Positions 29,117 through 34,409 of a stretch of DNA of 64,000 nt are shown here, one piece after another. A program made the position numbers and the translations under genes. Origin of the DNA: Defluviicoccus sp. (GTDB lineage Bacteria > Pseudomonadota > Alphaproteobacteria > MPNO01); assembly GCA_028820505.1 (NCBI GenBank), contig JAPPIT010000225.1, positions 64,356 to 128,355 on the forward strand, given 5' to 3'. Below the pieces are notes generated by a model, which saw nothing but the letters and a program-made list of their open reading frames with translations, searched no databases and was not told the DNA's origin. The number at the start of each line of letters is the position of its first letter. The stretch's first letter is position 1.

Positions 29117-30491
<1,375 letters not shown>

Positions 30492-30502
<11 letters not shown>

Positions 30503-32750
30503 CGCTGGGTCCCCCAGGCTGTTCCTGGCCGGCCGAACGTATCAGACTGCCACCCTCCCCTTCCTTTGGGAAGACCAGACGGGCGCGCGCGCCCCCTCCC
30601 GGCGCCGCTTCGAGGGTTACGTCGCCGTTATGGTCTTCCATGATTTTCCTGACGATCGCGAGCCCCAGCCCGGTGCCCTTCTCCCGTGTCGTTACATAGG
30701 GCTCCGTCAACCGTTCGCGAGCCGCGTCGGGAAGGCCGCGACCGTTGTCCTCGACCGAGACGACGACGGAATCCCCGTGCTCCGCGACCGCGACCTCGAT
30801 CCGGCCGCGGCCCGCCCCCTCCCCGCAACCCTGGATCGCCTCGACGGCATTCTTCAGCAGATTCGAAAGCGCGCGCGCCACAAGCCCGCCGTCGCACTTC
30901 ACGACCAACGGATCCGCTGGCAGGTTCGCCTCGAAAGCTATCTCGGGATGCGCCTCCCTGTAGAGCGCAAGCTCGACACGGCACAAATCGCCGATATCGC
31001 TCGCCGCGAGGACGGCGGCCGGCATGCGCGCGAAGTCGGAGAACTCATCGACCATTCTCCCGATGTTCCCGACGTGGCGGATGATGGTTTCCGTGTAGTC
31101 GTCGAAGGACTTCGGATCGCTCTCGATTTCATCCAGGTACTTCCGGCGCAGCCGCTCGGCGGACAGCTGGATCGGCGTCAGAGGGTTCTTGATCTCGTGG
31201 GCAATGCGGCGCGCGACATCCGACCAGGCGGCCTTCCGCTGGGCGGCGAGCAGTTCGGTGATGTCGTTGAAGGTGACCACGAAGCCGACGATGGCGTCGT
31301 CCTTCAGGTCGGCGGTAACGCGGACGAAGAGGGTTCTCGCGCCCTCGTCGCGCTTCAGCTCGACCTCGGACTCCGCCATTCCGTCCGGTCTGATCCTCGC
31401 ATTCGCGAGCAGCGCGCTCATGCCCGGCACCAGCAGCGCGAGGGGCGCGCCCAGGCGTTCGTCCAAGTCCCGGGAAAGCAGTTCGGAAGCGAGTCTGTTG
31501 GCGACGTTGATCCGTCCGGAACGGTCGAGTCCCACCACGCCCGCCGAGACCCCGGACAGCACGGTCTCGATGAAATGGCGCCTCGTTTCGAGTTGGCGAT
31601 TGGCTTCGAGAAGTTCGTCTCGCTGCGTTTCGAGTTGGTCGGTCATGCGATTGAAGGCGTTGGTCAACGAGCCGATTTCGTCCCGGTCCCCGCTTTCCTC
31701 GACCCTGGTCGACAAGTCGCCGCCGCGTACGCGTTCCGCCGCCGCCGCGAGCGCCGTTACGGGTCCCGCCAGCCGGGTCGCGAAGGTAAGGCCGGCCCAG
31801 GTCGCCGCCATGAGGAGGAGAAGAGCCACGAGCACGAACATCATCGCGAACGTGATTTCGAACGTATGCCGCTGGCCTTCGAGCGACTGGTACTCGGCGA
31901 CCGCTTTCCGGGTTTGGGCGATGTGGTCCAGGACCTTCGGTTCGACGAAACGGCTGATATACAGAAATGCGTTGATCGCGCCGTCGAGCTTGACGATTGC
32001 GCGCATCCGGTCTTCCGTACCGCTCGCGAGAACCACCAGCTCACCGCGCTGCACCTTCTCCATCGCCGAGGGTGGAATCGGCGCCAGGTCGAGCACGAAG
32101 CTCAGACTCCAGCGGGCGATCACCCGTCCCGTCCCGTCGAAGACATAGGCTTCGCTAAGATTTCGCAGGAGGCCCTGCGCCGCCATCATTTCGTTGAACT
32201 TGGCGGGCTGGGCCCACAGCCTGGGCGCGGCCCGGTTGACGTCCCGCGCGATTGCCAGGATGTCGCCCTGGATCACCTTCTGGTGCTCGCGCAGATAGGA
32301 CTCCGCCACGATCGACGCCTCGTCCAGCGCGGTCTGAACGCGGTCGCTGAACCAGGCCTGGACACCCAGGCTGAAGAAGACCGCGGAAAAGACCGAGACG
32401 ATAATCGCCGGGACAAGGGCGATCAGGCTGAACCAGAGAACGAGCCGGCTGTGCAATTTGGAGCCGAGAGAACCTCGCCTACGCGCGATCCAGATCCGGG
32501 CCACGCGCCCGGCGACGATCGCTCCCAGCGCCAGGAACAGCACCAGATCGACGTTGAGCAGGATGAGCAGCGCCCGGGGATCGGCAAAAATCGGCAGCGA
32601 GCCCGTGAGCGCCGCGTAAGTCACCAGTGCGGAACCGAGCGAAGCCACGGCAAGGACCACCGCCAGCCGTCGCCCAAGCCGGTACCGTCCCGCCCATTCG
32701 ACGAGCCGCACGGCCCCGGGCGCATCCAGTGCCGCCGATTTATTCGCCAT
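30492..32750 (-). CDS. ntrY: NtrY-family sensor histidine kinase
   Basis: N-terminal TM segments, HAMP, PAS, RRIAHEIKNPLTPIQLSAERLRRKY H-box, DNGRGLPD / GTGLGLAIV ATPase motifs. Confidence 0.95.
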
Positions 32751-32805: not shown

Positions 32806-33411
32806 TCATCTTAGGCCCCGCACGATGTCGATGTCGAGGTCGCGGATTTTCTTCCTCAGCGTGTTGCGGTTGAGCCCGAGAAGGGTTGCCGCCTTCAGCT
32901 GGTTGCCGCGCGTCGCGTCGAGCGCGTGGGTGATGAGAGACCTTTCGACCTCGCGCAGGACCCGGCCGTGCAAACCGGGTCCGGGAAGTCCCGGGGCGTG
33001 CGCTTCGAAATAGCGTGCCAGATGCGCTCCGACCGCGCGCGAGAGGCTGTCCTGGCCGCTTCTCGATCCTGCTTCCACGCCGTCGAAGGCGTGCCCGATC
33101 GCGTCCAGCAAGCCTTCCCCGTCGCCGGGCAGCGGGGCATGGCGGGTCGGGATAGGGAAGCGTACGGGCCCCTCTCCCCCCAGAACGACTATCGGGATCC
33201 CCGGCCGTTTCCGCTCGACCGCATCCGCGATCCGGCGAGCGGCGGCCGACAGCATTGCCGCGTCCACCACCGCGATGTCGCCGTACCCCGAGCCGAGCAC
33301 GTGAATGAGCGCGTCCGCCGTCGGAGCGAACAGGAGCGCATATCCCGCCGCCTCCAGGACCTGCCGGGTGCGATCGTCCGCGCTGGCCAGCACGACCGCC
33401 GGGGCGTTCAT
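32806..33411 (-). CDS. AAA+-less NtrC-like protein: degenerate receiver domain joined directly to NtrC Fis-type HTH
   Basis: 201 aa; [19 protein letters not shown]...[11 protein letters not shown] (receiver-like) then [79 protein letters not shown] (NtrC C-terminus); no Walker A/B or GAFTGA; sits between dusB and ntrY. Confidence 0.88.
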
Positions 33412-34409
33412 GCAGCCATGGCGGCGGTGCCCGCCAACCCGAAAAAAACCGCGATTTCGGAGCGTACGTGATGCGGGTCGGATATCGAGTTGACGGCGGC
33501 GCGAAACGCCGCGCCTCCGCGACAGGACCTGGCGTACCAGGCGAGATGCTTGCGCGCCATGCGGACACCGGTCAGCGGTCCGTAGTGGTCGATCATCGCA
33601 TCGAAATGGTCGAGCACGATGGCGGCGCGCCGCGCCGGAGGCGGATCGGGCAAGCGCGTCCCGGAACGGAGCCAGGCGATCGTCTGCCTCGGGAACCACG
33701 GCCTGCCGCAGGCGCCCCGGCCGATCATCACCCCGTCTGCGTTGGAGGCGGTCAGCGCGGCCTTAGCATCCCCGAGGTCGACGATATCTCCGTTGACGAT
33801 TACAGGGATCGAGACACTGGCCTTGACCCTGGACACGAACCGCCAGTCCGCCTGTCCCGCATAAAGCTGGTTCCTGGTCCGTCCGTGGACCGTGATCATC
33901 CGGATTCCGCAATCCTCGGCGATGGCGGCGAGCTTCGGCGCGTTGAGATTCTCGTCGTCCCATCCCAGACGCATCTTGAGGGTTACCGGAAGGTCGACCG
34001 CGGCCACCACCGCACGAAGGATCCGCGCCGCATGAGTCTCGTCCCGCATCAGGGCCGAGCCGCACATCTTCTTGACGACCTTCTTCACCGGACAGCCCAT
34101 GTTGATGTCGACGACGGCGGCGCCGCGGTCCGCGGCAATGCGCGAGGCCTCGGCCATCACGGCCGGATCGTAGCCCACCAGCTGAACCGCCATCGGAAAC
34201 TCCTCGGCGCAGTCCGCGGCGATCTTGCGGGATCCTTTTACCTGCCGGACCATCGCGTCGCTCGCGATCATCTCCGAGAACACCATTCCGGCGCCCCAAC
34301 TCTTGACCAGACGGCGGAAGGGCAGGTCGCTGATCCCCGACATCGGCGCCAGGAATACCGGGTCTGCGATCTCAACCGGGCCGATCCGGATCGGAGCGAA
34401 GACGGACAT
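33408..34409 (-). CDS. dusB: tRNA dihydrouridine synthase DusB (NifR3)
   Basis: [52 protein letters not shown]; stop overlaps NtrC-like start (ATGA). Confidence 0.95.

Follow-up and report, generated by a model that had tools for sequence, protein, structure and literature searches.

A 201-residue NtrC remnant behind dusB in Defluviicoccus joins a probable pseudo-receiver to a Fis-type DNA-binding domain

In Escherichia coli and Salmonella, fis lies in the dusB–fis operon. An origin of Fis from NtrC was reportedly proposed by Morett and Bork in 1998 (title cited in PMC7482072), and to our knowledge intermediates between the two have so far been lacking. A receiver domain (REC) followed directly by a Fis-type helix–turn–helix (HTH), with no AAA+ domain in between, is already known as an architecture from the RegA/PrrA/ActR regulators (NF033791; about 190–200 aa). 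The NtrC proteins of Caulobacter and Rhodobacter capsulatus lack the GAFTGA motif, are uncoupled from sigma54 and are active at sigma70 promoters; the motif of the Caulobacter protein resembles that of Fis, and GapR, a nucleoid protein, has sites that overlap with many of its own (PMC10274813). In the open-access papers searched, we found no earlier report of an NtrC without AAA+ or, in Alphaproteobacteria, of a Fis linked to dusB, which is no proof that none exists.

Here we describe X, a protein encoded in a 64,000-nucleotide window (the whole stretch of DNA analysed) of a Defluviicoccus sp. contig, in which the genes run in the order dusB, X, a gap of about 55 bases, ntrY, ntrX and trkA (Table 1). 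The initial annotation had read X as an NtrC without its AAA+ domain, a degenerate receiver being fused straight to the Fis-type HTH; the frame, start and coordinates that it gave are confirmed, as is the absence of the AAA+ domain. A longer frame of 297 aa starting from a GTG at 33699 was rejected because it overlaps dusB and because each of the five genomes of the genus shows the ATGA-coupled start behind dusB.

Table 1. Features of the dusB–X–ntrY–ntrX locus, in window coordinates
Feature	Position	Strand	Basis or remark
X, predicted pseudo-receiver plus Fis/NtrC-type DNA-binding domain, 201 aa	32806..33411	-	stop codon included
X residues 1–110, degenerate NtrC receiver (REC)	33082..33411	-	hhalign, AlphaFold2 model, Foldseek
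X D50 codon, aligned with the NtrC phospho-accepting Asp	33262..33264	-	invariant in 5 genomes
X S10–A11 codons, aligned with the NtrC acidic (Mg2+) pair D11–D12	33379..33384	-	pair lost in 5/5
X junction replacing the NtrC AAA+ domain; linker short, variable	33070..33081	-	X–NtrC alignment
X residues 115–201, complete NtrC/Fis-type DNA-binding and dimerisation domain	32809..33069	-	NtrC identity; 1ety/1ntc matches
X HTH_8 (Fis-type HTH)	32842..32958	-	Pfam
dusB	33408..34409	-	Pfam Dus 8.3e-94; stop overlaps X start (ATGA)
ntrY, histidine kinase	30492..32750	-	Pfam NtrY_N 2e-42
ntrX, full REC–AAA+–HTH, without GAFTGA motif	29117..30502	-	NCBIfam NtrX 667 bits

A Pfam search of X finds HTH_8 (1.5e-13), no Sigma54_activat or AAA domain, and Response_reg at merely 0.21 (12 bits). 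The C-terminal 79 residues match positions 390–463 of the NtrC model TIGR01818 (9.4e-20, NCBIfam); in the alignment, residues 1–110 of X correspond to NtrC 1–120 and residues 111–201 to NtrC 396–482, and the segment absent from X is the AAA+ domain, about NtrC residues 121–395. X therefore has an NtrC-type C-terminal domain in an ntr locus and lacks the GAFTGA-bearing AAA+ domain of group I NtrC proteins. The C terminus also matches the Fis model PRK00430 (3.3e-14), at 53.4 bits against an equivalog cut-off of 99, and X is not the single domain of about 98 aa that this equivalog describes. NF033791 is not among the matches of X at E values up to 1, and the separate RegA of the genome scores 310 bits. 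A second full-length ntrC, for which the initial annotation had proposed to look, is not present elsewhere in the genome, since HTH_8 occurs there only in X, NtrX and one RegA/PrrA-type regulator, and NtrX is the sole strong Sigma54_activat match (the other four have E values of 5e-5 or worse).

Weak as it is in Pfam, the receiver homology is solid at the level of profiles. The five N termini of the genus aligned with nine NtrC receivers over 110 of 112 columns (hhalign; probability 96%, E = 2.7e-9), with a score of 52.8 against at most 18.4 in column-shuffled controls (n = 100). An N terminus unrelated to receivers, plausible from the Pfam value, is contradicted by this comparison and its controls. 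The AlphaFold2 model of X (mean pLDDT 72; N-terminal blocks mostly 65–84) has the topology beta1-alpha1-beta2-alpha2-beta3-alpha3-beta4-(no alpha4)-beta5-alpha5, and Foldseek matches it to receiver domains at about 3 Å over about 120 columns; the pseudo-receivers KaiA and CikA are also matched. D50, at the end of beta3 and aligned with the phospho-accepting NtrC D54, is invariant in all five genomes, as is D12. Receivers need their acidic pair, Thr/Ser and Lys for Mg2+ binding and phospho-signalling. In X, S10 and A/S11 stand at the acidic pair, G78 stands at the Thr/Ser position and the KPF lysine is missing, each loss being common to the five genomes; from the intact site (D-D, D54, T/S82, K104), only the D54 equivalent is left in 5/5. 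Helix alpha1 is shorter by about four residues (about one turn), and helix alpha4, on the output face of a receiver, is gone. The residue-level claims of the initial annotation (D50 kept, the alpha1 region shortened, the KPF lysine missing) thus proved accurate. With helix alpha4 missing and, of the phosphorylation site, nothing but D50 left in all five genomes, phosphorylation of X is unlikely, and its receiver is very probably a folded pseudo-receiver that is incapable of it.

The DNA-binding domain is complete. It shares 57–71% identity with full-length alphaproteobacterial NtrC proteins, and its structure matches include 1ety (Fis) and 1ntc (NtrC). In the model, two helices for dimerisation (122–138 and 144–166) precede the HTH (171–177 and 182–191), a predicted Fis fold in a gene that, like fis, lies behind dusB. 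Its recognition helix, NRNTLRKKI, recurs unchanged in 76 of the 82 full-length, GAFTGA-bearing NtrCs compared, and the DNA specificity of X is for this reason probably ancestral.

What the genus has lost is visible from its relatives. In the sister genus (one genome only, 79% complete) and in the other relatives checked, the order is dusB–ntrB–ntrC–ntrY–ntrX, with ntrB directly before a full NtrC that carries GAFTGA and Walker A. The sister-genus genome (G005) has two different dusB/ntrBC loci (C130 and C557; L043 and L044), one of which may be contamination. No ntrB was found in the genus of X, where the best match to the NtrB model is NtrY at 65–85 bits, compared with 190–226 bits in relatives. 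The gene for sigma54, rpoN, which occurs in the sister genus and across most of the order, is missing from 5/5 genomes of the genus. The genome of X thus holds neither the cognate NtrB nor the sigma54 of an NtrC system, and in the genus the loss of sigma54 coincides with that of the AAA+ domain.

The genus retains PII, encoded by one gene, and glnA downstream of it. Upstream of glnB, alignment by eye places a sigma54-like (-24/-12) element, TTGGCACG-N4-TATGCA, in two relatives (G009 and G011), and a sigma70-like TTGTTW-17-TATACG in all five genomes of the genus. Judged from these alignments, nitrogen control at glnBA is rewired in the genus, the promoter having passed from sigma54-like to sigma70-like with PII and glnA kept. 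Just upstream of the sigma70-like element, the five genomes share a conserved block, GCGTTGANRAAAACGCRYCGCAGYGCGY (by eye), which is no classical NtrC dyad; this strongly conserved block upstream of the -35 measures ~28 bp (L213–L217). A palindrome in the glnBA promoter, considered as a motif of the X regulon, was rejected because it has only seven matches in the whole genome, and these form no pattern of a regulon; neither the block nor the genome-wide palindrome scan gave a DNA site attributable to X.

We propose, with a probability of roughly 0.62, that X is an NtrC remnant acting as a Fis-like dimer, which binds DNA at sigma70 promoters independently of phosphorylation and of ATP. The ancestor of X would have been a sigma54-competent NtrC; the losses are seen by comparison, and we infer their direction and order. 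The kinase NtrB would have been lost, the AAA+ domain removed by an internal in-frame deletion and sigma54 also lost from the lineage, with the receiver surviving as a folded pseudo-receiver whose altered residues are observed and whose chemistry is predicted from them. Through the intact NtrC DNA-binding domain, X would dimerise constitutively in the manner of Fis and recognise NtrC/Fis-like dyads; control of sigma70 promoters would follow from occlusion, from looping or bending, or from contact with RNA polymerase. Encoded in a dusB–X–ntrY–ntrX operon, it would work in effect like Fis from the gammaproteobacterial dusB–fis. ATP independence, which the initial annotation had also put forward, follows from the missing AAA+ domain, and X cannot be an enhancer-binding activator because both that domain and sigma54 are missing. 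The initial annotation also predicted binding to NtrC boxes and suggested a repressor, nucleoid-type or sigma70-activating role for X, all of which are putative. The Caulobacter NtrC may serve as a precedent by analogy for an NtrC with a Fis-like motif at sigma70 promoters, although it depends on its ATPase: GAFTGA-less NtrCs keep the whole AAA+ domain, and that of Caulobacter needs ATP binding and hydrolysis (PMC10274813), whereas X has no AAA+ domain at all. As the Caulobacter protein requires its AAA+ and REC domains for growth on ammonium (PMC10274813), X cannot simply do the job of NtrC.

A possible, if rather unlikely, alternative is that the pseudo-receiver has been repurposed as a sensor or partner module that steers DNA binding in response to a small molecule or a protein such as NtrX or NtrY. 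Receivers without the aspartate are a precedent for modules of this kind, and the Foldseek matches to KaiA and CikA fit such a role. The N terminus is under purifying selection (dN/dS 0.18–0.26 in close pairs), and stretches of it, located on beta1, on beta2-alpha2 and in loops that surround the former active site, are invariant in the five genomes, but this constraint could reflect folding alone, and the DNA-binding domain evolves more slowly (0.06–0.14). Other lineages have dropped the receiver outright, so its retention in X suggests a use. It is improbable, by comparison, that X is a working response regulator of the RegA/PrrA/ActR type, with DNA binding switched through phosphorylation of D50 by NtrY or some other kinase. 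D50 and D12 are invariant, the gene directly precedes ntrY, and REC–Fis-HTH regulators of similar size exist, one of them in this genome; however, X has lost helix alpha4 as well as the acidic pair, the Thr/Ser and the Lys that such a protein would use, NtrX, the usual partner of NtrY, is present and complete, and the DNA-binding domain is that of NtrC rather than of RegA.

That X is a pseudogene in decay, or a remnant with a dominant-negative effect, is very unlikely, even though the motor, the kinase and the sigma factor have all been lost and the locus is reduced further in related lineages. X is present at full length and in the same position in 5/5 genomes of the genus, at 59–89% identity to the protein described here, so that the open frame, start and length have been conserved over a divergence down to 59% protein identity. 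Its whole-gene dN/dS (0.14–0.21, close pairs) equals that of dusB (0.13–0.23) and lies somewhat above that of ntrY and ntrX (0.10–0.12), in keeping with the initial claim of a selected product rather than decay. An assembly or contamination artefact, that is, a deletion in one contig of a 228-contig draft genome, can be practically dismissed, as the same gene and flanks recur on unrelated contigs of five separate genomes. X is neither an assembly error nor a pseudogene. The initial annotation had named an assembly deletion, a copy unique among close relatives with an intact ntrC at this locus and a dN/dS near 1 as outcomes that would speak against it; none was found, and the survey of dusB–ntrY intervals that it suggested returned the same REC–HTH architecture throughout the genus.

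A search for related loci with that of X returned full-length NtrC relatives only, up to 67% identical. We also surveyed 387 genomes of the class (completeness at least 90%), 320 of which have an NtrC-type domain. Frames of at most 160 aa with this domain were found in 52 of 80 genomes picked from the weaker matches, a chosen sample and not a frequency; by our own count, among the 33 short-frame loci with wide flanks, dusB is the immediate upstream neighbour in 24, and ntrY follows the frame in 23. HTH-only NtrC remnants of about 80–156 aa stand directly behind dusB in many small-genome Alphaproteobacteria, usually before ntrY–ntrX (L045–L049, L168–L170 and L176–L198; G039, G028, G046, G032, G031 and others), and amount to dusB–fis-like operons outside Gammaproteobacteria; at L183, L187, L196 and L197, ntrYX is also gone and trkA comes next. 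These remnants resemble X in their locus and in the loss of ntrB and the AAA+ domain, but have no receiver and a more variable recognition helix (NRNTLRKKI in 15/56 loci). In a tree of 86 DNA-binding domains, X forms one clade (100/99) nearest to full-length NtrCs (91/91), and a single clade of X with the HTH-only forms is rejected (AU test, p = 0.009, from 90 columns with long branches). On this phylogeny, the topology shows an origin of X independent of the HTH-only, dusB-linked remnants of ~80–115 aa. Across the class, rpoN loss and HTH-only forms are not associated (22/52 versus 8/20, p = 1); a general link between the losses of sigma54 and of the AAA+ domain is therefore unsupported, and we do not claim the former as a general cause.

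Other reductions of NtrC came to light in the same survey. Three proteins of 350–363 aa that occupy this locus position (L166, L173 and L174; G263, G081 and G184) are REC-less AAA+–HTH forms without GAFTGA in genomes with rpoN, and group in one clade of the tree. Before ntrY in G289, a 228-aa frame (L167, 4198–4884, minus strand) joins a GNAT-type acetyltransferase (rimI-like, 4.8e-8) to the NtrC/Fis DNA-binding domain; it was discarded as a second REC–HTH case because its N terminus is the acetyltransferase. Between dusB and ntrY in G042, an open frame (L204, 4115–5581, minus strand) apparently fuses an NtrB fragment (PAS and the start of HisKA) to the NtrC DNA-binding domain, in a single genome, and could be an assembly join. 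The 478-aa NtrC of L156 (G126) lacks both GAFTGA and Walker A, and its genome gave no rpoN match; nor did that of L205 (G120), at 100% completeness, which encodes a normal GAFTGA NtrC.

By these comparisons, X is neither an NtrC, nor a Fis equivalog, nor a RegA/PrrA protein, but has the architecture of RegA and, probably, the mode of action of Fis. With full-length alphaproteobacterial NtrC (TIGR01818), it shares the dusB–ntrY position, the homologous receiver and the recognition helix; it differs in having no AAA+ domain, ntrB or sigma54 and in its eroded receiver active site and missing helix alpha4. Like gammaproteobacterial Fis, it has a Fis-type dimerisation and HTH domain, directly follows dusB, lacks AAA+ and is not expected to be phosphorylated; unlike Fis, it carries a pseudo-receiver of ~110 residues, lies upstream of ntrYX and goes back to a separate, recent truncation. 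RegA-type regulators match it in size and domain order, but keep the active-site residues, have their own RegB-type kinase and use another DNA-binding domain. The initial designation of X as a candidate novel reduced regulator holds for a selected, AAA+-less NtrC and not for the REC–Fis-HTH architecture as such.

X is a selected NtrC minus its motor, kinase and sigma factor, with a receiver remnant and a Fis domain that still sit behind dusB, like fis of E. coli; as other lineages have reduced this gene differently, it may show how Fis-like proteins arise. X and the HTH-only forms are independent parallels, at the same locus, of the proposed NtrC origin of Fis. We raise only tentatively the wider reading that the dusB–ntrBC locus of Alphaproteobacteria repeatedly yields Fis-like proteins and that the genus of X preserves an intermediate stage on the path that led to Fis, in which the pseudo-receiver has become a sensor module, independent of phosphorylation, within a new nucleoid-type regulator. 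To the same tentative reading belongs the varied stripping of NtrC to REC–HTH, HTH-only, AAA+–HTH and apparent GNAT–HTH and NtrB–HTH forms, with the DNA-binding domain always kept. For annotation, the locus is a caution that ntrC-like genes beside dusB are often not NtrC. For the family, X offers a test case for the function of the NtrC DNA-binding domain in the absence of sigma54, and for the change from a dedicated enhancer-binding protein to a regulator that binds DNA more generally.
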